Of a stretch of DNA of 64,000 bases, positions 5,723 to 50,061 are shown piece after piece. This stretch comes from Fragilaria crotonensis. Taxonomy: Eukaryota; Bacillariophyta; Fragilariophyceae; Fragilariales; Fragilariaceae. Below the pieces are notes generated by a model. It made no database searches, was not told the DNA's origin, and was given only the letters and a program-made list of their open reading frames with translations. The stretch is from assembly GCA_022925895.1 (NCBI GenBank), contig JAKSYS010000231.1, positions 18,429 through 82,428 on the forward strand. The letters are read 5' to 3'. Position numbers and translations under genes: made by a program. Each line of letters begins with the position of its first letter. Positions within the stretch are counted from its first letter, which is position 1.

Positions 5723-6226
5723 AGTAGTACTGGATTACGAAAGGTCCTACGACAAGGGTCTCGAGGACGTCTTTCGTCTTTCGTTGTTCAATTTGTCTAT
5801 GTGACTATGTGTCATAGTAGCTACTGTAGCTACTGTACTACCAGTAGTAGTAGTAGTAGTGGTATAACAAATTAGATCACACATCAAGTTTACCTACTGT
5901 ATGATACGTAAACCGTAAACCGTACCAGTAGGCAGTAGAAGAATGTACTCCCGTACGCCTCTTCAGGCAATGGCCTGCTCACTTGGGGCAAAAATCCATG
6001 AAGAATCCTTTCCGCTGGAGGCAGTTTCGTTGCTCTCTGCGATGCTAAATGCTAACACAATATCGTATTCTTCTTGATGAATAGCAAGAAGAATGGGCTC
6101 ATTAACCTGTTTACGATAGTCATCTATTAGTAGTAGGAAGTGGTTACAGTGCCAGGTACTACTGTATCCACTCACGATGCACACAACAGCAAGCGTACTT
6201 GTACTGTACAACCAGGTATATACCCG

Positions 6227-6443
6227 GTACCATGTACCATGTACCATGTACCATGTACCATGTACCATGTACCATGTACCATGTACCATGTACCATGTAC
6301 CATGTACCATGTACCATGTACCATGTACCATGTACCATGTACCATGTACCATGTACCATGTACCATGTACCATGTACCATGTACCATGTACCATGTACCA
6401 TGTACCATGTACCATGTACCATGTACAATGTACAATGTACAAT
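6227..6443. repeat. Heptamer satellite, 31 copies of GTACCAT/GTACAAT
   Basis: 28 perfect head-to-tail copies of GTACCAT (6227-6422) followed by three copies of the variant GTACAAT (6423-6443). As 7 is not a multiple of 3 and the unit makes no stop codon in any frame, all six frames stay open and give artificial heptapeptide repeats (VPCTMYH on +, MVHGTWY on -). These are not genes. The flanks are also rich in GTAC and CTAGTAC words. Confidence 0.97.
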
Positions 6444-6997
6444 ACTAGGTACTAGTACTAGGTACAGTATGCATATTTGCCATAGACAACGACATTTCGT
6501 GCATGATTCCTCGCGCTATTTTTTGAAATTGCCGCGTTGCAGCGTTTTTCAATTGGTACGAGTGCTTTTGGTACGGTGTGGTAGTTCGCCTGTATGTGCT
6601 TCCATTTCCTATATTCGAAACCGAAGACATATATCTTTCTCGATTCTTGCCATTCCCAAATGTTCTTTGCATACCTGGCACCTGGCACCCTACCCTACAA
6701 GTTGTGAATTCCACTTAACGAGTATATCATAGAAAGGATATTTGCACGTAGAGAAAGGGTGTATTCATGCAAGTACGCCTACTAATGTACTCGGTGTATG
6801 TAATAAAAATTTGGCGCGCAAATTCTATTGCTCAAATCTTGTACGTAGCTCAGTATGGATCCTTTGCGGGAGGGGAGAGGGGAGGGACCCTCATGACATT
6901 CCTTGTTATCACATTTGTTACATCCGCTTGATTCGGTTGCGAGATTTTCTTTGTTGGCGGAGATTCTGCGATTCTGCTACGATATCAGTTTGGGACG
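6444..6997. other. Intergenic, upstream of RNR1
   Basis: No coding region recognised. The stretch must contain the promoter and 5' leader of the ribonucleotide reductase gene, but no defined element could be assigned. Confidence 0.35.
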
Positions 6998-16537: not shown

Positions 16538-16780
16538 ACTTGCAGAGTAATTTATGGAGTCAATTTATTTATGGGTTCCCTATGTCATACTGTACCTGGT
16601 CGTACAAAATTCTGCCGAAAAGTGTGTTCTTTGGGGGGGGGATGGCGGCAGTGTGCCCCTTTTAGAGATCTACTACTACTGGCACTCTGTCACACTGTCA
16701 CTCATAATTACTGTAAGGTTTAATGCCATACGGTAGTACAGTAGACAGTCCCCTATTTTTCTTTGTCTGTCTGTGACCTG

Positions 16781-17130
16781 TGTTGTAATGTCAGTATATT
16801 AGACGATACGATAGGTCATAAACCAAGTATCCTCCTTGTCTAATGTCGTAAACAGAATTGATAACAGAACGAAAGTCAATCAAACCTTGATCCTATTAAC
16901 GGGATTGTTTCGAGATAATGATCCCGAAACAATCCTTTTATTGCTACGCATCACTGCTTCCTTTACTGCGAACATGCGTAGCTCTACGTTCTTTGTGTTC
17001 GTTGGTACCTTTCGTACTACGTCTGACCAAGTGATATTGTGCGGTGTTCCTTGCACTGTACTGTCGTTCACGGTGTCGGTTACAACTGTAGCTCCGTCCT
17101 TATTAGAGTCAAATCGTACTTCTCCAACAC
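16781..17130 (-). repeat. 3' LTR of copia element 1
   Basis: 350 bp, TG...CA, matching 22853-23204 except for scattered substitutions, a 2-bp length difference and a changed patch near 16972-16982. Inside is a 9-bp inverted repeat, ATTGTTTCG and CGAAACAAT (16904-16933). Confidence 0.95.
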
Positions 17131-20100
17131 GCTCCTCGATAGGTATCATAAGGGCGGAAGCAAGGCTGTCGACGTGAGCCCTGCCGAGTAACACATCCCG
17201 AAAGGTTCGGAACAGATGTCCTTGGAGCGGTTTCGTGAAGAAATCCGCTTACATTTCCAATGTTGGGCAGTGTCGGATCTGAACCCCTGCCGATTTAATC
17301 CGGTCCTTAATCCAAAAGTATCGGATGTCAATGTGTCGTGACTTTGGACCCGCAGAAATCCGACCGTTCGTTTCGAGCTTGATAGCGCTCTCGTTATCCT
17401 GCTCAAAGATATTTTCCGTTGTAGTGTACCCTTGTGCTTCGAGGAACATTTTTACCCAGAGCGTATTAGGTAGGTAATCGCTCGCCCCAACGAACTCGGC
17501 CTCGGTCGAACTTTTGGTGTTCAATTTTTGCTTCGTGGATTTGCAGATTATTCCCCGGTGCCAAACGAAATCACACCGCCGGTATGGCTCTTCATGTCGG
17601 GGTGCACGGCGAACGACGCATCCACCCAAGTTCGCATGCGACCCATGTCATCGGCCCCGACCGTGTATTCCATGTCCATGCTACCGTTTATGTATTCCAA
17701 TACTCTCTTTAATTTCGAACGGTCCTGTTGGGTGCTCTTTGATACTCGTGTCCACAGAAAAGCAATAGCAAGTAGCAGGTCAACGCGAGCCCGGATGGCA
17801 ACATATAACAACTTGGCAGCAACTTTATGGAACGCTTCGGCCTCGTCACTTTCCAACATCGGAGACTGTTCGTTTACTTCAAATAGGTTCCTTTGGGAAG
17901 GTGTAGCTGCTGCACCCGTGATGTTCATTCCCGATTCGAGTAAAGCCTCCTTCAAATATTCTTTCATAGTAGTCACGGCGGTGCCCTTTCCTGTGTAGCG
18001 AATGTTCATTCCAAGGAACACGTGCTCTGCGCACCGTGTCACTGTCATCTTACCGAAACGCTCTTCCATTTTTTCAATAATAGACGTTACTACCTCTGGG
18101 TTTGCATGGGAGATCTTGGTATCGTCAACCTACCATGCAATAGTGCATTGTGTGCCGTCGATCATGCAGTTAGCGATGCACGAGTCATACGGATTCAGCA
18201 CAAAACCCATCTCCTGGAGGTTGTTGTAGAACAAGTCGTACCAGAGGAGGGCAGACTTAACGCACCCGTAAAGTGCCTTCTTAAGTCGAACATACAATAC
18301 TTTTGTTCCGTTTTCGTAGGCCACGAACTCCTTGTGGCGGGGATTCATGGCGCAGAGTATGTCCACGGACTCGCCGGTGAACTTCATTACAACAAAATCG
18401 TCCATGAGGGCCTTCAAGAATGCACCAGCCACGTCGGCCGTTCCAACGTCGCGTCGCTCATATGCGTCAATAATGATCGACAGGATAAGAGCATCGGTTG
18501 AGACAGTCGGTGATGCAGTCTGTGACTTGTCGTAAAGTCCTCGTTGCGACCTCCCATCGGCAACGGTGCGTCCCTTAAGCGACCCGTCACGCTTTTCCTG
18601 AATAAGGTTCAAAGCCCGTATCACGGCTTTTCGTTGCTCTTTGGTAAGGGAGCTGGCGTGTATGGCCTCATATACATCCTGGTCTTCCAATTGTGCGAAT
18701 TCCTTCATGAGAGCAGCCTCGGCATACTTTCCATGTTTCTTTAGTGCGGCCTTTGCAGACATCTGAGTCATGATGTATCCAAAAATGTATTTCTTGATAT
18801 CATCCGCACCCATCAATCGCCTGCTTCCTTGCTGAAGTAACTGCATTGGTGGGAAATATGACTTGCTGTTGTGCGGTGCGTCCATCGCGTGTTTAAAGGT
18901 GTCTGGTGCCGCGACGTTTCGTTCTCGCAGGTTGTACGGCCTTTCGAGCGTAGGCGCTCCTTGGTCTGCTGCCTGTTCAATGGGCGCTCCTTGGTCTTCT
19001 GTCGGTTCGATGGGCGCTCCTTGGTCTGCTGCCGGTTCGATGTGTTCGTGAGGGTGGAGCTCGTCCGCCTCGAAGGGCGCTTCAACAGTCGCGAATGGCG
19101 CTCCTTGCGCTCGTTGTTCGCGAGGATGTTCAGTTTCACGAGGCGCGTCGTGACCGCCATAGTCGTCATTGTCGTCAGAGTCATAAACGTCGTTGTCAGT
19201 GTAGGAGTCGTCGTCATCTTCGTAAGGATCATTTACATTCATAATCGCTCCTTGGTCCGCGAGGAGATCGGCGACTTCATCGTGGTCGATGGGATCGTAG
19301 TTGTCGGCGACAAAAGCAACAGGGACGACGTTGGTTGGGGACTCGTAGTCGAGATCGTATTCGGAGTCGTCAATGAGCTGGTGTGGCCGCCATTCAACAA
19401 CAAGGCCAGAGTTCTGGATGAGAGGTTGCCCCTCGTGAAGTGCGAGTGCTTCAACACGGGCAATGGCAGTGTCCGTCATGGGGAGAGCCGTCCATGCGTG
19501 ACGTGACAGTTTGTTGCCAGTGGCAAGGGACAAGAAGTAGTAATCGCCCTGGGCATTTCCGGTGGGTGTGAGGGCAATAGCTCCCAAAGAACGCGCACGG
19601 AGAGTGTTGGAAGGGTCGTTATCTTCAAAAACTTGAGCGTAGGTTCCAAACTCGACACGCATGCACTGATAGTCGGGAGTGCCAACTCCTGTAACAATTG
19701 TGGCGGGACTCATGGTGTCAGAGATGCCGTTTTTCCATGGGAATTGGTTAAGGCACCGCACGGCGTCGGCCACCATGTGCGTGACAAGCAAACGTGGAAG
19801 CCGCTTAAACGGCAATCCGTGAGCACATGAGCGGAGGCGCTCCTTAATTGTGCGAATAGATCGTTCAACCTCGCCCACGTGGCTATCCGTCGGGACAATG
19901 TTGAGAACAATGGGCAGGAGGGAGTCACGAACGCACTCAAGCTCGTGGTCCCCATGGACGTCGCATACGGTTAGCCCACGGGCTTCGTATATGTGTATCA
20001 CCTTTCGGAGCACCTTGAGGAGTGTAGGTTTGCTGCGATCAGGTATTGGGTGCGCTGTCCGGAAACCAATCCCCCGTGCGACGGTATGAAAGAAAGGTAG

Positions 20101-21470
20101 CCCTTGAACAAAGAAAATGTCAGCACATAGTGTGACATGTCGGTGGTGCTCCAGTATCGGTGCCGGTATGGACGTAGCCACAAAGGTTGGCGCCCGTGGA
20201 GCAGCGGCGGATCGCGTGGTCTTTCCTTTAAGTACGGCAATGTCAGGGCCGTAGATAAGGAGGGCTCGCTTTGCATCATCGGTCGTCACTGGACAGTTTC
20301 GAATCAAGTTATTCTTTAGGATCTGCTGGAATTCGACCTCGTCGGGTCGACCAATCTTGCGATAGAGTTCACGAGCGGCATCGGCGGACTTTATTTCCCG
20401 GCGCGAAAACAATTTCTTTTGCGCTGCTACGGTTGAGACCATCGTATAGTATCCAGTAACATCCTCGTTAGTACGGTTGTTACTCTTGTACACGTAAAGG
20501 CCTGATGGGTGCTCGAGGAATTTCATCACAGAACCATCAAGTCGGTGAACAAGCAGAGCGGGTTCAGCCGACGTATCCATCGTGACCCGACAAACTTTGC
20601 GCACCTCGGCAAGGGAAAGAATGTTTGCAATAGATGCTTTGTTATACCATACTTCACCCAGGTTTGGGAAGTCGCCCACCATGCTAGAGTCTTGATGGCC
20701 TCCATTTGTTAGGGCCCTGAGCACATGTTCACCACGGCGAATGTTGGTAAGCATGTTTTCATTCTTAAACACAGAGATCGTCGATTGAGAATCGAGGAGG
20801 ATCCAGGTAGGATCAATCCCGTGCTCGTTGTTACTGACGTCGGCGGCTTGTGCGAGCATAAATGCATACTGGGTAAGCGTTGTACCTGACATCGTTCCAC
20901 TTCGGGATCCCGTGGGGCAGTCACCTGCGTAGTGACCGTGCTGTTGGCATGTCCAGCATTGGATGCTATCATGCGTCACACCGTTTGTTCCGGCCACAAG
21001 GGCGTTGCGTTGCGCGAACGTCATCGCGGTTGCTTCGGGGCTTGCGGCAGGTTGGCTTCGTGAGGCAGTTCCACTCCTGTTTGTTGGCGCATTGGTGGGT
21101 GTCTTATACATCACCAAGAGACTTTTGGCGGCAACCACATCGGTAGGGTATTCGTCCTTTCCCTTCGCATACTGGTTGGCCAGGTCGGTAATGAGCGTTC
21201 CGTATCTCGATGCGTCGGCGCTTCGGATTAGAGCGATGGCCAGCGTACGTTCGCGCGCAATATCCTTTCGTACCTCGATGCTACGTGCGTTGCCGGCCCT
21301 GTCAATCGCCGGGATCAGCTCGTAGTTTGCTGCCACGTTTCCACCGTGAGTCTCAATCGTGTCTGCCCATCCGAGCAAGCATTTGGCATACTCATCGGCG
21401 GACTGTCCAATTAGTTGCTTACATGCGAAACTGTGAGCATCAAGGAGGGAAAGGAATCTGCTTTCATCAA
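17131..21470 (-). pseudogene. Pol and gag C-terminus of copia element 1
   Basis: The main open part (18130-21378, extending in frame upstream to about 21470) holds the gag C-terminus, a CCHC zinc knuckle (CWTCQQHGHYAGDC) and the protease strand WILLDSQST. The integrase follows with its D, D and E in CADIFF, DVHGDHEL and GEVERSIRTIKE. Next is a linker with three QGAPIE-like repeats coded by GGCGCTCCTTGG units, and then the reverse transcriptase (ADVAGAFLKA, RLKKALYGC). A TAG stop replaces the residue just before VDD of the RT active site (18130). RT continues at 18129-17548. A frameshift near 17550 leads to RNase H (KLNTKSSTEAEFVG) and a TAA at 17249 precedes ADFFTKPLQG. Inactive as read. Confidence 0.9.
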
Positions 21471-21513
21471 ACTGTTACCGACTTGATTTGTCAGATTACC
21501 GTGTATACCGTTG

Positions 21514-22838: not shown

Positions 22839-22852
22839 TTATCTCGAAACAA
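22839..22852 (-). other. Putative primer-binding site, complementary to own LTR
   Basis: The 14 nt directly inside the 5' LTR read TTGTTTCGAGATAA in transcript sense. They are exactly complementary to 22980-22993 within the same LTR, and the last LTR base extends the match to 15. This fits a self-primer, not an obvious tRNA. Confidence 0.6.
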
Positions 22853-23204
22853 TGTTGTAATGTCAGTATATTAGACGATACGATAGGTCATAAACCAAGT
22901 ATCCTCCTTATCTAATGTAGTAAACAGAATTGATAACAGAACGAAAGTCAATCAAACCTTGATCCTATTAACGGGGGGATTGTTTCGAGATAATGATCCC
23001 AAAACAATCCTTTTATTGCTACGCATCACTGCTTTGTGTTCTGCGAACTAGCGTAGCTCTACGTTCTTTGTGTTCGTTGGTACCTTTCGTACTACGTCTG
23101 CCCAAGTGATATTGTGCGGTGTTCCTTGCACTGTACTGTCGTTCACGGTGTCGGTTACAACTGTAGCTCCGTCCTTATTAGAGTCAAATCGTACTTCTCC
23201 AACA
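22853..23204 (-). repeat. 5' LTR of copia element 1
   Basis: 352 bp, TG...CA. In transcript sense AATAAAAGG lies about 28 nt upstream of a TCATT initiator-like word around 22992-22996, which suggests the transcription start and the beginning of R. Confidence 0.93.
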
Positions 23205-23539
23205 ACCTGTTCCAGCAGTATTCTGAGAATCAGAACCCTGGTACCGATTTGCAACACGCACTGTTTGAATTTACTTCCCTAAGTAATTCAAACCATGACT
23301 GTTGTTGATAACTTCAACAACACTTGTTTTAGTAGCTATGGACAACAGTCCCCAACCACCACTCAGGAAGTGGGACTAAGACAACACTTCATTTGTGAGC
23401 CTCCAACTAAGAATGTTGGAGATCTCACCTTCATTTTTCATCCTTGTTTAAACTTATAACATTCCCAAACCAAAAACTGAAAGGGCCTTCACTTCTTAGC
23501 ATCTACATTTTTCACACTTGTACCATCAAATCTACCGCC

Positions 23540-39237: not shown

Positions 39238-39730
39238 CTTGCAAATATCTTTGAGGCTTTGCTTTGTACTTTGATGGTCGTTGGCTCCTTTTCTTGGTTG
39301 GCATGATTGCGATCGCGCCGTGACAAATTGTGAAGAAAGGATATTGGATCACCGCGAGGTACCATGCCAATGCAATACTGCATACTGTATCGAATCATGT
39401 CATGGTTATGGCGCGAAAACTACAGTTAACCTGTTATCTATATTTCTCGCAAGCATTAAAAAAAATACTGCGTGGCATGTCTACATTAAATTGGTGGCCC
39501 GGCTAAATGGTGGAAAATTTGAGATGTGCAAAATCTCGGAGGTGCCATCGTCCAGTGCGTTTAGCGAAACCCCGGCTTCCAAAATGCCTGTTTTGCACAG
39601 CAAAAGGAACGTCGCTCCACATGGCAAGGAACATCATTGCCGTATGTGAAGAAGTAATTAAAATGATATTGAGTACCTTTTTTGTAGACGTCGTGAAAAT
39701 TAAAACATTTAGTGGCTCAATTTCTTTGAA

Positions 39731-40239
39731 GGGGAAATTACAAAAACATCAACTAAGTTTTCCATTTTCAATAACACTTAATGACCCTGTATAAACGAAA
39801 AAGCCCTTTGGTATTTCACAAAAATTTTGCTCATTATTACAATAACACCAGATATCTTTGTCACGTTTTTACTTACACATCTTATTGATCTCAAACATTT
39901 ACAATAACCCCATTTATCGCCAGCCATGCCAATTCTCCACAGACACATTGGTACACCGTTGCTTTCGTACCTATCATCAAAAATGAAGATTGCATCCTGA
40001 TTGCCATGGCCATTATCTCATTCCATGCACTATCATCAACTTTGAACCAAGGCAAGCATGTGCCTAATGATGCATGAATTACAAAGCTTAGCAGCGGTCA
40101 TAATTTGTTTTAGTAGGATGTTGTTGTTCTTTTACATGCAATTCCGAGTCCGTCTGCTCGATTGATGAATTGTTGGCATCACTGATGCCAGTATTTTACA
40201 CAATTCCTCGTACCCAGTACCGTAAGTTATCACAAATTT
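39731..40239. repeat. Left TIR of the MULE (509 bp)
   Basis: Inverted copy of 43554-44062; mismatches seen include one G/A in the AAAAGCCC run, one in CATAATT.GTTTTAG and one in CTAATG.TGCATGAA. Confidence 0.93.
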
Positions 40240-40350
40240 TGGCTTTTCCGCATCAACACACCTCACACTTCCCATCTCAATGGCTGGCTATACTTACAAC
40301 AGGTATCTAATGTACTTATCAGAACTCCTACTTCTCATCATGTTAACTTA

Positions 40351-42628
40351 CTACAAAGTCCTAACTTGGTTCTTGCATGTTCTTTTATTGTGTCCTTGTT
40401 GGCCACAATCTGAACATTTAATCGGTGATTCCTCTGGATCAAGAAACTCACTTTGTTGACGAAGTCGTTTGCTTCGTGGGCGCCCAGGCTGTCGCTTTGT
40501 TACAGCAGGAGGCCTTGTCACGCCATCGTATTTTACGTTGTCAATGCACGCTGGAAAGATGTTGTTTTTGTACATCTCTTGTACGTACTCAAACTTGTAG
40601 TATGGATGCACCAAATTTCATAGGATATAGCCAAAATCCTTTTCCTTCCATTTCCGAAAGATAGCACAACCATGCCGACATGGGTACAGAACATCTTGCC
40701 AAATGCCACAAGAGCACCACTGCAACTCTGGTTTCACAATGTAGACAGTGTTTGGTTGCCCTGCATTGTATGGCATGCTGGGCAAGTGAGGGTCTTTGTC
40801 GGAGTCTTGTACTGTCGAAGGCTCCACAACTTTGAAATCTCCACACCCATGCACCAACTCAACAACTGTGATGGATGCCGCAGCATCCCAACGCCTTTTC
40901 AGAATCTGTGCCACACGAGGCACAACCTCTCCCGGCTCCCGATCAATGTGCTTTGTTCGGCAGGTTGAAATTCTTGTTGACATTACATCCACAATGCTTT
41001 CTACCGCCTCCAGCCATCCCACACTGCGAGCCTGTGCAAACATGTTGTTCACACATTCGCTTGTGTTGGAGGTTACAATCCCATAACGCGGCGGGAGTGG
41101 ATTCTGCTCATCTAGCCATGATGTACTTCTCCAAAGGGTATCGTTGTCAACATTTTCAATATAATCTGCAGCTTGCGGCTTGATGGTCCTCACTTGATCA
41201 ATCAAGTGATTTGAGTATCTGAAGGAGAAACGTTTTGCAATTGCCATCACATATCGAGCACATTGTTGACTGAACTTCTGGCATACATTTGCTTCAATAT
41301 GTTTCGCACAGCTCGTTTCCTTATTTCTTGGAAACACACTTCGAAGGGCCGGTTTCAGACCCTTGTCGCGGTCGGAAACAAATAGAAATGGATGCTGAAT
41401 TTCTCCCTCGTCACGCTCTCATTGCCAAAACCCTGCTCAGAGATGATTGGGCACGCCTCCTTCAAGTATTTCAACATTGTTGTCCACGTCTCGCCATCTT
41501 CATTCCCAGAGGAGATCATGAATCCAATCGGATACACCTCATTTGTTCCAGAAAGGACTGAAGCCACATACATTGTCCCTTTGTAAGTACTCTTAAATGT
41601 GCTGCATCCAGAGATATAACTGGTCTTGCAAACTTTAATGCCGTATTCATGAAACGAGGAAAACATGTACATGTTTAATGGATCTCTCCTCGCTATCATA
41701 TGAATACCCAATGACAGAGTCGGCGTTCAACTGTTTCATTGCCTCAAGGTACCCTGGCAGTAGTTCAAAATTCTTTGAACTCTGCCTAAACTGGGCACGA
41801 TTGATTGTTGAGAGCGCGATATGCAGGCATGTAAGTGATTACCTCACCATCCACGCTTGCAGCTGTCTTTATGACATCAGCTGGAGTTGGATCGTCCTTT
41901 TTGGATCAAACAACCTGAACAATCATCTCGTCCAGTTTCCCAGCTCGTCGTTTCTTCCATTGACGCCCATCACGTGCAACAGGTTCGCATCGCTGGGCAG
42001 TGTGGTACGTAATGTTCCGCTTCACAACATAGGCACCATTAAGTCGGCGCCGCCCGATGTAAATCTGAAAAGTACAGTTCACATGTTCCTTGCAGATGTA
42101 AAGACAATACTCACCAACAAGACTTCGTTGAATGGCTAACCGATTGCCTGATTTCTTCTCATAGGCCTCAACTGGACTGACATCATCCAAAGTCGGAAAT
42201 TCAACAATGTTTTGTTGGCGCATAATATCTTGAAAAGATGTGTCCTCATTCTTGCTGTTTGTCAATGAAGAAACACAGCCTTGACTTTCAATTGTTGCAT
42301 TGGTTGCCGCCGCGGTAGGTTTAGGACGAGCACTTGGCTTACTGTCCCCATTAGTTGAGCTGTCGTCATCAGGAAGATTTCTTGTCGGTGGCATCTTGGC
42401 TTCCTCGGTTGTTACATCATCCATCTCAGCATCTTCCCTGCTTATGAGTATCACATCATCATCGTCGTCATCATCATTTGTCTTGGCAGCAGCAGGAACC
42501 GTGACAACGACCTCAACCCCATAGCTGCTGAGGATAGTCGTACCCTTAAGTTCTGGAAAGCAATCTCGTACAACTTGCCTTATTTGTTCATTGACATCAT
42601 CATTCTTGCGGTTGAAATGGGCTGCCAA
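40351..42628 (-). pseudogene. MULE transposase, interrupted by stops and frameshifts
   Basis: Read from 42628. A linker with an acidic run precedes the FLYWCH/WRKY-like DNA-binding region (LYICKEHVNCTFQIYIGRRR, then HTAQRC). TGA, TAG and TGA stops and a frame change follow near 41905-41765. The MULE catalytic core continues at 41711-41355 (STYKGTMYVASVLSGTNEVY, MISSGNEDGETWTTMLKYLK) and, after another shift, FLFVSDRDKGLKPAL. At 41337-40618 come TSNTSECVNNMFAQAR and the SWIM finger (CSCGIW, then CRHGC). After an in-frame TGA the C-terminus (40614-40351) ends in a CCHC knuckle, CSDCGQQGHNKRTC. The expected first catalytic Asp is not clear in this copy. Inactive as read. Confidence 0.85.
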
Positions 42629-42634
42629 TTTTGA

Positions 42635-43513
42635 TCAAAGTAGGATGCAGTGGTTGAAGTTGAAGGTGTCTTCAGTGACAGGCTTGAAATCAAGCAAATG
42701 AAGGACAACAGCAATACAGAATAATCCACAGTCGATGTCATTATACTGTCCTGGACATTGGTGGAAACCTATTATGTCCAAGCGAATGAGATCGTCATCC
42801 GAAGGAAGAGTGATATGGTTCAACTTGTTCTTGCCATGCAACACAAAATTGAAAAAGAAATCCCTGACCTCACGAACAATGAGAAAAGCAGGGGTGCCTT
42901 GGATTACTCCAGGTCCTCCTCGCGAAGAGCGTCGCAACGAATCGTAGTATTCGAAACGCAAAAACAATTCTCGGCATGCGAAATTGAATTCCACCACAAG
43001 CACAAAGAAATGCACTGCGTTGACAATTGGAATAATAAGAGTCTTGGTGGCATCATCATCATTGATGTCAGAAAAAAGATCAGCCAAAGTTGACTGAATC
43101 CCTTTGATCTTGGCTTGGATCCGGTTCCAGTTGGAAGGTTTAACAGATTCACGGGCAACGTGTACCAAAGCGTTGCAACTCTCCAGATATGATCTTGTTT
43201 TGAGACTTCCAAGAAAAACTTGAAAAGGAGTGTCTTCATGTGGTGGTGGTGCGGAACGCTGAAGGAGGCAGTCAAGGAGACGACTGTTCAACATTTGCCG
43301 ATTCCCAAGTGCCTGCAAATCATTCGGTGTCGGATTAATCCTCACGCCATAACGTGGATCGGTTGGAAAGTGACATTTCTTCTCTTTTTTCTTCTTTGCC
43401 ATTTTGTTGTTACAAGTGCATGAAAGAGATGGAATGGATGCCACACCAGCAAGAAGGAAGAGTGGTGGTGAGTATGTGAGAACTTGCTTGTGGCGATGCA
43501 GCACATGCAGCAA
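42635..43513 (-). CDS. Ulp1/SENP-like C48 cysteine protease of the MULE
   Basis: A 292-residue ORF with the C48 catalytic set: His168 in NAVHFFVLV, Asp191 in EYYDSL, Gln256 and Cys262 in CPGQYNDIDCGLFC. Ulp1 proteases cleave SUMO or SUMO-like tags. A start at Met39 (before KKKEKKCHFP) is as likely as the first Met. The following transposase is in the same frame: only one TGA (42635-42637) separates HCILL from SKLAAHFNRK, and the transposase piece has no ATG of its own there. The original product was therefore probably a fused protease-transposase; CGA-to-TGA would explain the stop. Known plant MULEs with captured Ulp1 domains are the nearest parallel. Confidence 0.85.
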   Translation of the reverse strand: MLHVLHRHKQVLTYSPPLFLLAGVASIPSLSCTCNNKMAKKKKEKKCHFPTDPRYGVRINPTPNDLQALGNRQMLNSRLLDCLLQRSAPPPHEDTPFQVFLGSLKTRSYLESCNALVHVARESVKPSNWNRIQAKIKGIQSTLADLFSDINDDDATKTLIIPIVNAVHFFVLVVEFNFACRELFLRFEYYDSLRRSSRGGPGVIQGTPAFLIVREVRDFFFNFVLHGKNKLNHITLPSDDDLIRLDIIGFHQCPGQYNDIDCGLFCIAVVLHLLDFKPVTEDTFNFNHCILL

Positions 43514-43553
43514 TGAATCAGCATGGGATATAAAGATGACTCTTAAAGATACG

Positions 43554-44062
43554 AAATTTGTGATAACTTACGGTACTGGGTACGAGGAATTGTGTAAAAT
43601 ACTGGCATCAGTGATGCCAACAATTCATCAATCGAGCAGACGGACTCGGAATTGCATGTAAAAGAACAACAACATCCTACTAAAACGAATTATGACCGCT
43701 GCTAAGCTTTGTAATTCATGCAACATTAGGCACATGCTTGCCTTGGTTCAAAGTTGATGATAGTGCATGGAATGAGATAATGGCCATGGCAATCAGGATG
43801 CAATCTTCATTTTTGATGATAGGTACGAAAGCAACGGTGTACCAATGTGTCTGTGGAGAATTGGCATGGCTGGCGATAAATGGGGTTATTGTAAATGTTT
43901 GAGATCAATAAGATGTGTAAGTAAAAACGTGACAAAGATATCTGGTGTTATTGTAATAATGAGCAAAATTTTTGTGAAATACCAAAGGGCTTTTTTGTTT
44001 ATACAGGGTCATTAAGTGTTATTGAAAATGGAAAACTTAGTTGATGTTTTTGTAATTTCCCC
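43554..44062. repeat. Right TIR of the MULE (509 bp)
   Basis: Inverted copy of 39731-40239. The promoter for the protease-transposase unit should lie inside it, as the first ORF starts about 40 bp from its inner edge. Confidence 0.93.
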
Positions 44063-44097
44063 TTTTTTTTATGACTCAAAGCCATTTTTAACTGGTA

Positions 44098-44331: not shown

Positions 44332-44659
44332 TGTTGAAACCACAATATCAACATACAGTACCTACGTGCCAATCAGACAACGATACAGTACTGCAGTCAA
44401 CACTGGGAGATTAAATCGCTTGTAAATCGGAAAATTAAATTAGAATGAGACTATCACTCGTTTCCCAAGCTGGTCCGTTTACAATTGACCTTTTCGTTCA
44501 CACGTGATACGTTCTCAGTCTTGCCGGCACTCAATCGTGACAGCTTCCGTTTCTCCTTAATGTCTTGTTTAGACTCCACGGTTCTCCATCCGGTATCCGT
44601 TTCGTCTCCGTTCGTCCTCTCACTATGTCCGGTCATTCCGACAGTAATATTATTCAACA
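44332..44659 (-). repeat. 3' LTR of copia element 2
   Basis: 328 bp, identical to 49733-50061 but for one C. The 3' end of the coding frame runs into it (last in-frame stop at 44454). Confidence 0.97.
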
Positions 44660-47600
44660 CACTCCTGCAATCCTGCGATCCATCATCGTAGGTCGTAGGA
44701 TTGACGTTCATGATCTCGTCACGGAACTTCATAAATTGCATCCCTTGCAAAGGTTTCGTAAAGAAGTCACCAACCATTTCGTTGGTAGGACAATGCTCAA
44801 TTTTGACCTCTCCAGAGGCCACTCGATCCTTGATAAAGAAATAACGGATGTTGATATGTCGAGTTCGCTTTCCACTTGACGCCTTCCCGTTTTCGGCCAG
44901 TAGGATCGTACTTTTGTTGTCCTGATAGACAATGGATTCGTTAACTGCGTATCCCTGGGCCTCCAAGAAATATCGGGTCCATAAGGCTTGTGGAAGAATG
45001 TCGTTTACCCCAACCAGTTCGGCCTCAGTTGAACTTTTCGTATTAATCTTTTGGCGAGTGGAAGTGCCGTAGATTGCCCCCTTGCCAAGCATCATCACGC
45101 CACCTGTATGACTTCGCATATCAGGGTGCACCGCAAACGAAGCGTCAACCCACCATTTAACGATGTTACATTCGTCAGCCTCCAAAATCAAGGGCATTTT
45201 AACCGTGCCTCGCAGGTACATCATAGTCCTGCCCAATTTTTGTAGTCGTCGACGTCCGGTTCTTTACGCGAGTACATAGAAATGCCACTGCTGTCTGTAT
45301 GTCCGGCCGTGCGCGCGCATAGAAACAGAAGCTTGGCCACGTTGTGATGGAAAAAATCGGACAACTCGGTGTTCAGCTTTTCTGCATCATCGTTCACATC
45401 GAATAGATGCGATGATGCCGGTGACCTGACTGTTCCTGACATGTCGGCCGGCAATTCCGTTATCATGTTCTCGATGTAGTCGATCATCGTGAACTTAACC
45501 TTGCCCTTCACGCTGAAGTCGATCGTCATTCCAAGGTATTCGTGCACCTTTCCTCTTGAGATCGTGAGCGGGGCCTCCTTCCCAAATTCAGACTTCAGCA
45601 GCTCGATCACGTCATCAACGACCTTCGGGTCAACATGGGAGATTTTAAGGTCATCCACATGCCACAAAATGGTACACTGTTTACCATTGACAATTTTGTT
45701 GGCGACACAGCTGTCATATGGGTTCAGAACAAATCCCCATTTGATTAGTTGCTTGCTTAGCTTTTTCCAAAACAGAAATGCGCCAGTCAGCGTGCCGTAC
45801 AGCGCCTTCTCCAGTTCCACATAGAGTACCATTCGCCCGTTTTCCATCTGAATGTACTTCCGATACATTTTGGGATCAATTCGGACCATGAGCTCTGCCA
45901 TCTTCCCTTCCAATTTCATGTGGACTGTTCTTTCACCTTTCATCCCGACCTGCATGAATGCAGCTGGGAGGTCAACCACCCCCACATCTCTTTCTTCTTT
46001 GGCGTCAATTGTGCACGATAGCATGACGGACTCAGTTGCGACTGTTGGTGAACTCGCCTCTTCCTTGGTTGTGTATGGTCGCTGTTTTCTGCCGTCCGCA
46101 CAGCCTCTTCCTTTTACCGTGCCATCTCGTTTCTGCTTCAAAAACATCAGGTATTGTAGTGCCGCCTCGCGCTCTTCATCGGTCATCTCGTCCTTGCCCC
46201 TTGGCCTTATGACCTCACGGTCATACAGTTGCGTTAGTTCTTTAAGCACGGCGTCAACGCCGGCCTCGCCAAAAATTCGGGCCCTTTTCGGACGCTGTGC
46301 TGTGTCATGGCGATGGACTCGAGCGTAGCGTGTAGGTGGCCATAATCCCGCGGCTTGCGGGCCCGAAGATTATATTTCCCAGTCTTCTTCCGTATCGCAC
46401 GTCCATGAGTTCGTCAACTTGCATTGCAGGTCGCGCAGCCTCGACTTGTATTGTTGGCGCGACTGGAGCGATCTCGCCCTCTCGCGACTTCGTTCGCGTC
46501 CTCGTTCGCGTCTCTCGCAACTTCGTTTGCTTCTTCGTTCGCTTCTCTCGCGACTTCGTTCGCTACATCGTTCGCTTCTTCGTTTGCTTCTTCGTTAGCT
46601 TCGTCGTCTCTCGCGACTTCGTTCGCTTCTTCGTTCGCGTCTTCGTTTGTTTCTTCGTTAGCTTCGTCGTGGGCGTTTCTCGCGACCTCGTTCGCTTCTT
46701 CTTCACCAGCTTCACCAGCCTCTTCTATCGCGACATCCGGGATGTCTTCGTCGTTTGCATCCTCTTCTATCGCGACACCCGGGATGTCTTCAGCGTTCTC
46801 TTCAACGTTCTCTTCAACAATCTCAACAATCTCATCATCCACTCCTGCGATCTGACCGTCGATCCAGTCATCATCATCGTCGTCGTCATTAGCTGGGTCG
46901 TCGTTCGGATCGAAATCATCATCATCATCATCGTCATCATCATTCGCATCGTCGTCATCATCGGGGATTAGCACTCCTGCCCGATCGGAAAACTCAAGGG
47001 GAGTTAATTCGAGATCGCGACGCGATAGTTTGTGCACTCGATCAATAACGTCTGCGGGGATTGGGAGCTCCGTCCATTGTGTGCGGTGCAAGCGCTTACC
47101 AGTTGTAAGGCTGTAGAAATAGTGTCCCCCTTGTGCGTTACCCGTTGGGCGGAGCGCAATGGCACCCGTCGTACGCGGTAGCATAGAGTTATCGTGGGGT
47201 TCATGGGTCTGGACGTAGGCGCCGAACTCGATCTTGCAATGAGTGGCGTAGTCAATCGTCGACCCCACCACGAGAGCTCGAGGGCTCAACACATCGGAAA
47301 TGCCTCTTTGGACAGGGAAACTGTTGAGCCAGAACACGACGTAGTGTATGAGCTCGATGACGATCCTTGCGGGCAACTGTTTGAACGGCAGCATGCCGAC
47401 CACACTCCTGGATCTTTCTTTGATGGTCCGGATGTGGCGCTCTATTTCAGGCACATGTTCCTCGGCGGCCACACAATTAATGCTGATTCCCAGCTCCGCA
47501 ACGTCACCGACGAGACCGTCCTTGTCGAATTCGCCGTCCATCAATATCACCTCAATGTGAAACCCACGTTTTGCATACGTCTGGTGCACATGTGAGATGG

Positions 47601-47985
47601 CCTTAAAGATTGTGTCGGATTTTCGGTTGGTTAGAAACTCAGATGTTGAAAACCGGATATTCCTCGAAATCGTAACGAAAAATGGAAGCTTGTTTACGAA
47701 CATGATATCACCGGCCAGAGTTACCTTCCGGTACCGAGACATTATGGTAGCTGGTATATTGGTGTAAGTAGCCTGCACTGCTTTTGGCGTCTTTCGGACT
47801 GTTTTGCCCATGAGCGATCCGACCTCTGGGCCAAATATACGCTCCGCTGCAATAATGTCCTCACGCTTGACAGGACAATTTTGGAACAGGTTCTTGTCCA
47901 CAATGCCCAGGAATGTCTTAGTGCTTGGTCTTCCAATAATTTTTTGTACCTTTCGGGCCAGTACCGCCTTCGAGTAGTCGCGTTC
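44454..47985 (-). CDS. Pol of copia element 2 (integrase, RT, RNase H), frameshifted
   Basis: Read from about 47985 (DYSKAVLARKVQKII). Integrase residues lie in TLAGDIMFVNKLPF, VILMDGEFDKDG and EIERHIRTIKERS, then FPVQRGISDVLSP. An acidic linker of about 150 residues follows, first Asp-rich (46860-46980), then repeats of EANEEANEVARD type (46480-46700). Frame changes occur at about 46420, 46370 and 46280 (AAAAGGG). RT follows: VKGRGCADGRKQR, DLPAAFMQV, LEKALYGTLTGAF and the active site CTILWHVDDLKISH. Two compensating shifts lie at 45310 and 45260. A missing A in the run before 45236 separates RT from RNase H (INTKSSTEAELVG, YQDNKS, GDFFTKPLQG). No stop is explained only by substitution. Confidence 0.88.
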
Positions 47986-48021
47986 GGGTAGTACGGTTAT
48001 CCTCTACCGTATTGATCAGGT

Positions 48022-49702
48022 TCACGTCATAGTGTCCTGTGTCTTCATGGTCCTGCTCCTTGGTATCGATGTAATACAGCCCCTTCGGGATTGCTTGAAA
48101 ACACGCACCGTGCCGTCATGCTTGGTTAGGTGAAAGGCATTTCCTTCCTCGGTATCAAATGTCACGCGGTACCCACGTTCCTTCGCCTTCGCGAGAGACA
48201 ATATGTTCGCAATGCCTGTAGGGTTGTACCATACAGTTCCGTATCCACGGAGCTCGCCGATCAATTTAGTACTGGCAACGCCTGCATTGCAGTGAATGTC
48301 CATCGAGTTTGAATGCTCGCGAATGTTCGATAGCAGCTTTTTGTTGCAAAACACATCAACTGTAGACTGGTTATCAAGGAGGATCCAGTCTCGCGGAAGC
48401 CTGCCGTCGTGCTCGATTTGCATGACAACCCCGTGGTCGGAACCGGCAGCGCCGACGTTAACGAAGGCATAGTTGGCGACCTCATCTTGGTCATCAAGGA
48501 AGTCGATGTCGTACATGCCACTCGTAAGTAGCGTCGTTCCTGACTGTTTCTTGACTGGTTCAGCTGCTGGCTTCTTCTCATCACCCTCCGCCACACGTTC
48601 ACCATCGCACTCGTTTGCGTAGTGTCCTTTCTTCTTGCAGCGGTGACACGTAATGTGTTCTTTACTTCTGGGTTTGGCCTTTTTGTCCCCTTTTTCGTTG
48701 TCGGCGTTTACGAAAGCAATCTCCCCTTCACCTCCCACCTCGCGCTGTCCAAGTCGAGGATTGTTCTGGTAGTTGGAGAGGCGATGAAACGCATCGGCCC
48801 TGCTGCTGGGATAGCGAGCGTTACCCTCGTTATAATCGTTGTTGATCCCTTCGATGTACTTGCCGAAACGAGCACGGTCGCATGTCAACATGAACGCAAC
48901 TCCAAGGATCCTGTCTCTGATTTCGGCCTTCAAGGTACCCAGCTCTGCAGGGGTCATTGTGGCCTTGTCTCTCCCGTTTAGGACGTATCGTTCCATTCCG
49001 ATGTCATCATCGATGTTGCCGCCAGTATGTTCGAGCACATCAACGAGATTGTTGAAAACGGTGAGATGCTCCTTCAGAGTAGTGCTTCCGTTCTGCATCA
49101 AGTTGAAGTATCGCTTCTTTGCTTCATGAATGGCCCTTCCTGGATAGTTCTGGCTTTGGAACGCGTATGCAATGTTCTTGATCAGGATGAGCAGTTTCAA
49201 GCCGTCGCCGCTTCGCCAGATCTCGTCCCAGCCAGTGCTCGATTCCAGCTTCTGCTGCATCATGTCGGTGCATTGGCCCCATACGAGGGCGTATAACTTC
49301 TTGACGTTTTCGTTGAAGCCTGCCATCTGCTTTCCGACCATTGTGACTGCGTCTCCCCACAGCTTCTGCTGACCAGCAGTTGCCGTTGGCGGTAGGTCAT
49401 CTGGTATAAAAAACGTTGGTGCTTCGAGTGTCGATAGCGAGGCGAATGTCGCCGCCATGCTTGAAAGTCCTACCGCAATAAGCGGATAACTCCTTCTTGG
49501 TTCTGACGAACGTGTCGGCCATTTTCGATTCAGAACAATCAAAGATAGCTCCGTTCAGCTCGTCACATTTTCCTTCAAACTTCTTCGATGCGACACGATG
49601 ACCCTTGTTGAAATTGTAGCCTCTCTTCTTGGCTTCGCCTTCTTCCTTGTCCTTCTGTCCTGCATCACTGTTGCGCTCGGTCCTTTCCTTGGCCTCTGCC
49701 AT
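48022..49702 (-). CDS. Gag and protease of copia element 2, frameshifted
   Basis: The ATG at 49702 starts MAEAKERTERNSDAGQKDKE and runs to FKHGGDIRLA. A one-base shift near 49440 leads to the long gag frame (YALVWGQCTDMMQQKLESS, the usual copia gag block), a CCHC knuckle (CHRCKKKGHYANEC, about 48640) and the protease strand WILLDNQSTVDVF. The region before the GAG-pre-integrase part (VWYNPTGIANILSLAKAKER) is intact. Another shift at the C run near 48100 (KQS to PKGLYYIDTKEQ), where one more C mends the frame, leads into pol. The fusion is expected to be one Gag-Pol protein in the intact element. Confidence 0.85.
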
Positions 49703-49718: not shown

Positions 49719-49732
49719 TTCTAATTTAATTT
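49719..49732 (-). other. Putative primer-binding site, complementary to own LTR
   Basis: The 14 nt directly inside the 5' LTR (AAATTAAATTAGAA in transcript sense) are exactly complementary to 49833-49846 of the same LTR; the last LTR base extends the match to 15. Same geometry as in element 1, with a different sequence. Confidence 0.6.
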
Positions 49733-50061
49733 TGTTGAAACCACAATATCAACATACAGTACCTACGTGCCAATCAGACAACGATACAGTACTGCAGTCA
49801 ACACTGGGAGATTAAATCGCTTGTAAATCGGAAAATTAAATTAGAATGAGACTATCACTCGTTTCCCAAGCTGGTCCGTTTACAATTGACCTTTTCGTTC
49901 ACACGTGATACGTTCTCAGTCTTGCCGGCACTCAATCGTGACAGCTTCCGTTTCTCCTTAATGTCTTGTTTAGACTCCCACGGTTCTCCATCCGGTATCC
50001 GTTTCGTCTCCGTTCGTCCTCTCACTATGTCCGGTCATTCCGACAGTAATATTATTCAACA
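49733..50061 (-). repeat. 5' LTR of copia element 2
   Basis: 329 bp, TG...CA. In transcript sense a TCATT initiator-like word (around 49845-49849) directly precedes or overlaps the segment complementary to the primer-binding site. Confidence 0.95.

Follow-up and report, generated by a model that had tools for sequence, protein, structure and literature searches.

A divergent copia lineage of the diatom Fragilaria crotonensis with a putative self-priming site mirrored in its own long terminal repeat

Introduction

With reference to the published accounts consulted in this study, self-priming of reverse transcription has been demonstrated for the long terminal repeat (LTR) retrotransposon Tf1, and elsewhere it has been implicated or predicted. 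In Tf1, the first 11 bases of the RNA pair with the binding site, and a cut between bases 11 and 12 releases them as the primer (PMC7175516). Tj1 has been proposed to use the same mode, and predictions of it exist for the Tcn1 clade of Ty3/gypsy elements as well as for the plant copia lineage TAR (PMC6317226, PMC4600332, PMC7175516); a study of one Tcn1-like element reports that no evidence of self-priming was found (PMC2864245). In this study, two copia elements, element 1 and element 2, were investigated in a 64,000-nucleotide (nt) stretch of Fragilaria crotonensis DNA (assembly GCA_022925895.1, contig JAKSYS010000231.1, positions 18,429 to 82,428 of the forward strand; hereafter the window), together with their relatives in the same genome. 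We observed that the 14 nt directly following the 5' LTR of each element are the exact complement of a segment inside that LTR, which points to a lineage that very probably uses its own RNA to prime reverse transcription.

Like the Tf1/Sushi group and Tj1, where the RNA 5' end complements the site after the 5' LTR and is cleaved where the match ends (PMC7175516, PMC4600332), the diatom lineage carries such a complement, and its RNA would be cut likewise. Unlike Tf1, a Ty3/gypsy element with an 11-nt match, it has a match of 14 nt, is of the copia type with an integrase-like region before the reverse transcriptase (RT), and displays a W-H-V-D-D active site; descent from the Tf1/Sushi family was rejected, as the RT belongs to RVT_2 and not to Ty3/gypsy. 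The plant TAR lineage (Houba, Osr-1) is similar in being Ty1/copia with predicted self-priming and differs in being a plant lineage; for copia, the TAR prediction of self-priming precedes this study (PMC6317226). CoDiI and CoDiII are likewise divergent, diatom-specific copia elements (PMC2806351), and assigning our lineage to CoDiII would be a guess; the main text of that report holds none of the terms 'primer binding', 'self-prim' and 'tRNA' (PMC2806351). The fungal GalEa copia elements, which carry a Conserved Hairpin Site, also lack a site of the transfer RNA (tRNA) type, but their LTRs are described as having no complement of that site (PMC5445492), whereas the diatom LTRs harbor an exact one. 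Among the papers listed from the open literature on copia, diatoms and algae, none dealt with self-priming in a diatom.

Self-complementary sites in the window and in related elements

Element 2, on the minus strand, has a 5' LTR of 329 nt (49733..50061) and a 3' LTR (44332..44659) that is 99.4% identical to it. Its predicted self primer-binding site, AAATTAAATTAGAA (49719..49732), adjoins the 5' LTR end and is exactly complementary to the arm TTCTAATTTAATTT (49833..49846) at LTR nt 216-229, which would form the 5' end of the RNA. The match reaches 15 nt when the last LTR base (49733) is paired with LTR nt 230, and the arm directly follows an initiator-like TCA (49847..49849), a putative transcription start by comparison with the initiator consensus of PMC3599244. 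Element 1, also on the minus strand, has a 5' LTR of 352 nt (22853..23204), in which the arm TTATCTCGAAACAA (LTR nt 212-225; 22980..22993) follows a TCA and mirrors the predicted site TTGTTTCGAGATAA (22839..22852). An earlier reading of the window from its sequence only had placed the 14-nt complement of element 2 (lengthened to 15 nt by the final LTR base) at LTR nt 216 after TCA, and the equal layout of element 1 at nt 212 with another 14-mer; both descriptions, and the coordinates for element 2, were right. That reading had also called the two sequences unrelated, which holds for the 14-mers and fails for the elements, since their RTs are 40% identical.

Searches of the 62.1-Mb assembly (881 contigs) with the LTR and RT of element 2 retrieved many relatives, among them the RT of element 1. 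The RT-anchored sample comprised 34 stretches, element 1 included (35 were requested, one being absent from the assembly), and the self-match layout was present in 27 of these 34, again with element 1 among them. In this layout the LTR holds TCA, the 14-mer, T and then C, and the complement stands directly after the LTR end, with the arm lying about 110-147 nt before that end in the LTRs of the lineage. Variation was slight: TCA is replaced by GCA in L075, L076, L079 and L083 and by TTA in L080, the C after the arm by T in L083 and L090, and the arm of L064 has 13 nt instead of 14. Six stretches (L072, L078, L081, L084, L086 and L094) showed no recognisable 5' LTR and, resembling none of the other 5' zones, probably do not hold one. 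Inverted matches elsewhere (for example, 19 nt in L084; 12 nt in L076, L079, L086 and L090) were set aside because they lie away from any LTR end.

The LTR-similarity sample yielded 40 matches at 30 loci, of which 24 form 12 pairs spaced 5.2-5.5 kb apart and six are single. The match was detected in the 5' member of all 12 pairs, element 2 included, while no site follows the remaining 18 loci. Both counts, 27/34 and 12/12, start from elements picked regardless of the match; the RT-anchored searches imposed neither a site location nor a 13-base minimum, and the search of the LTR pairs set no minimum length. These samples serve as the scan of the genome's LTR elements that the sequence-only reading had proposed, and its view of self-priming as a trait of this copia lineage gains support from the relatives sampled.

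Covariation, folding and chance

Collecting the arms by script turned 46 loci into 39 rows, those without a row being the six stretches lacking a recognisable 5' LTR and L091, which is discussed below. The 39 loci represent 16 distinct 14-mers plus the 13-nt case of L064, which was omitted from the table of pairs. Across the 16 arm/site pairs, all 224 of 224 positions are Watson-Crick and none is G-U, although 13 of the 14 positions vary; when the partners are swapped between families, a mean of 7.7 of 14 positions still pair, and perfect pairing occurs in 0 of 240 combinations. The boundaries of the match are sharp: the A of TCA is paired in a single family of the 16, position 15 pairs with the LTR's terminal A in all 16, and position 16 (C opposite C) is paired in none. 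An initiator-like TCA stands directly before the arm in most families. The co-variation that had been suggested from two elements thus extends to 16 families, in which arm and site change together.

RNAalifold recovered the arm/site helix unaided on alignments of the whole leader. Changes on both sides affect 9 of 15 pairs in a 9-row alignment and 11 of 15 in an 8-row alignment, compared with at most 1 and 6, respectively, in slid registers, and no alignment shuffle attained either the covariation score or the fraction of cells that are paired. Each of the 17 leaders holds the helix in its minimum-energy fold; L064 forms 13 of 14 pairs, and the other 16 form all 14.

Chance was assessed with 20,000 dinucleotide shuffles per LTR, each searched for its longest stretch exactly complementary to some portion of the site. 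No complement of 13 or 14 nt arose from either LTR; the maximum of 12 nt appeared in two shuffles for element 2 and in one for element 1. Chance is thereby ruled out as the origin of the match, in keeping with the earlier view that it explains 14-nt matches poorly. AT-richness was rejected as well, because the element-1 type is not AT-only and the swapped partners fail.

Additionally, element-1-type LTRs (nine families: L061, L070, L071, L074, L075, L076, L077, L082 and L087) harbor an imperfect inverted copy of the arm directly before TCA, with a mean score of 18.6 against 9.4 for shuffled sequences. Since swapping the upstream segments among these families still gives a mean of 15.0, this third copy is only weakly family-specific. 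The seven families of the element-2 type have no such copy (11.1 own, 10.0 shuffled, 10.7 swapped). As a speculation, the hairpin before TCA could mask the arm copy in the 3' LTR.

Placement of the lineage and the other copia elements of the genome

Judged by their sequences, the two elements of the window are members of a divergent lineage of Ty1/copia. The RTs fall in RVT_2, the copia family, with no other Pfam RT family at E 0.001; the RVT_2 match of element 2 lies over the cut-off (E 5.9e-15) and that of element 1 just under it (E 5.1e-7). The last D-D-E-like motif, read by eye, stands just before the RTIKER motif and upstream of the RT in both elements, and the LTR ends are of the TG...CA form. 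The coding region of element 1 (17788..21474, minus strand) consists of a CCHC knuckle (Pfam match just under its cut-off), a DSQS protease motif and an integrase-like D-D-E region, both read by eye, and the RT, whose active-site motif is interrupted by a stop codon (W-stop-V-D-D), so that this copy looks dead. In element 2, the coding region (44454..49554, minus strand) is split over several frames, with a weak zinc-knuckle match under its cut-off, an integrase-like frame with D-D-E motifs read by eye, and an RT frame with W-H-V-D-D. No integrase profile of Pfam or NCBIfam matched either element, and a sequence search of PDB with the RT gave nothing at E 1. An NCBIfam match to portal_PBSX (E 0.099, far under the cut-off) was dismissed as noise, and 15 stretches of viral contigs fitted a pattern in the RT search, with none confirmed as a relative.

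An RT tree separated the putatively self-primed lineage from canonical copia elements with a support of 1.000 and on a long branch. The tree was built from elements 1 and 2, seven relatives of element 2 and 19 of 30 canonical RT loci; element 1 is the sole representative of its type, and the priming type was read for the element 2 relatives except L030. One fragment, L023, was omitted from the tree as too short. The RTs of elements 1 and 2 share 19 to 29% identity with the canonical RTs, and the W-H-V-D-D active site of element 2 and its relatives stands against YVDD or YTDD in the canonical ones.

For contrast, eight canonical copia stretches (L095-L102) were examined. No inverted match of at least 12 nt was among those listed for them, with L095 holding little of its LTR, and the self-match geometry was not borne out as a general copia trait; as seen here, it appears limited to one divergent copia lineage. 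L095 and L101 display a site, GGTTATGAGCCC, complementary to the anticodon region of a tRNA-Met gene detected by ARAGORN (L103). This gene is taken for the initiator; a pattern with a eukaryotic tRNA-iMet start gave no match, and the gene was found with another pattern. L096-L100, whose LTR ends are unconfirmed against a 3' LTR, share the putative site ACGCTTCCTCTGCGC, the complement of the D-arm of the same tRNA-Met and not of its 3' end or anticodon half. The complement of ACGCTTCCTCTGCGC occurs at 72 places in the genome, one of them the tRNA gene itself. For 39 of the 72, one of 73 listed RTs follows at a distance of 3.7-5.5 kb downstream in the right orientation; for none does one follow in the wrong orientation. 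By eye, the tRNA-Met matches of both groups measure about 14-15 nt. L102 (C215) showed no recognisable priming type.

Probable self-priming and competing explanations

We consider it highly probable, from the comparison of these sequences, that the lineage relies on its own RNA as the primer of reverse transcription, by Tf1-type self-priming. From the Tf1-like layout we infer that RNA polymerase II would start at the A of TCA, making the 14-mer the 5' end of the RNA, that this end would fold back onto the site after the 5' LTR, and that an RNase-H-like cut after nt 14 would release an RNA primer of 14-15 nt, which the RT would extend into U5, copying the terminal CA of the LTR first. Plus-strand strong-stop synthesis would then copy the still-attached primer into a new site, so that the binding site would be written anew in each cycle from the 5' end of the RNA. 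Such a copying step would explain why neither G-U pairs nor one-sided changes are found. More tentatively, and with somewhat less than even confidence, we propose jointly that primer and site may evolve as one, without G-U intermediates, through a site rewritten each cycle; that three copia priming ways with footprints of about 14 nt may coexist in one genome, namely priming by the 5' end of the element's own RNA, by tRNA-Met through its anticodon half, and by a shorter fragment of that tRNA from the D-arm; and that in element-1-type LTRs the third inverted copy may lock the primer copy of the 3' LTR in a hairpin, leaving the 5' end as the sole copy able to prime.

The closest competitor differs in the molecule that carries the primer. 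Retroelement RNA is packaged as a dimer, and the primer might be the 5' end of the second RNA of the same element, acting in trans within that dimer. The sequence evidence is equal for priming in cis and in trans, but in all 17 leaders the minimum-energy structure is a self-fold that contains the helix, and we regard the trans arrangement as unlikely. A further possibility is that the complementarity serves some other task of RNA or DNA structure, such as dimerisation, packaging, translation control or a promoter cruciform, with priming left to another primer. Structure by itself would also yield covariation, and the further inverted copy just upstream of TCA in element-1-type LTRs, as well as small extra hairpins in the leader of that group, agree with a structural role. 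Against this, the downstream arm occupies the position required of a primer-binding site, immediately past the LTR end, even in the searches free of location; the helix has no G-U and no one-sided changes, which fits copying better than plain pairing; and no other candidate primer-binding site was seen after the LTR end. A purely structural role is accordingly rated as very unlikely. That a tRNA or other host RNA primes, with the LTR match being a fossil or a product of chance, would agree with the sites matching tRNA-Met in some other copia elements of the genome, but this idea has to accommodate a single lineage with 16 different sites, each of which is matched by its own LTR, and a match that LTR shuffles fail to produce by chance. 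On the number of different sites, a tRNA primer was rejected for this lineage and is scarcely credible; none of its sites starts with TGG or equals either of the tRNA-Met-matching sequences, a comparison that did not extend to a scan of all tRNAs.

Several observations weigh against self-priming as proposed, or narrow its base. The relatives all come from one genome, and among them L091 is a true negative, with an intact site and an LTR without the arm (best match 8/14). The collection of arms required at least 13 exact bases and ACA before the site, so that the perfect pairing of the collected rows is partly a matter of selection. The LTR borders were checked against the 3' LTR for the window elements and the LTR pairs; those of the other RT-anchored elements are putative. 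A transcription start at the A of TCA would leave the first RNA base unpaired in 15 of 16 families. Of the 500 shuffles made per alignment, 56 and 101 attained the count of further pair types, and 19 attained the count of both-sided pairs of the second alignment. No target-site duplication was found for element 2 (flanks CCTTG and AAGAC), and the frames of both window copies are broken. Moreover, the start site, cleavage, priming and primer copying are steps that we infer from the arrangement of the sequence.

Taken as putative primers, 16 covarying sequences in one genome constitute strong comparative evidence for self-priming outside Tf1/Sushi and plants. The covariation fixes the likely length of the primer and both of its ends almost to the base, and the lineage offers a natural data set on switching between tRNA primers and self-primers within one superfamily.

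Other features of the window and the genome

The 3' LTR of element 1 lies at 16781..17129 (minus strand), and the element is flanked by the target-site duplication ACCTG (16776-16780 and 23205-23209), read by eye. Next to element 2, positions 39729-44064 are probably a Mutator-like DNA transposon: this segment has two inverted repeats of 511 bp, 99.4% identical, and its frames display weak matches to MULE transposase, Mutator and SWIM, under their cut-offs, together with a Ulp1 peptidase match over its cut-off. A tandem array with a 14-bp period was also noticed at 6162-6483 of the window, inside the open frame 6106-6732. Elsewhere in the genome, matches to silicon transporters, which mark it as that of a diatom, amounted to 19 rows, 18 of them over the family cut-off, and at G000:C97:29749-33762 three such matches stand in a row within one open frame of 1456 amino acids.
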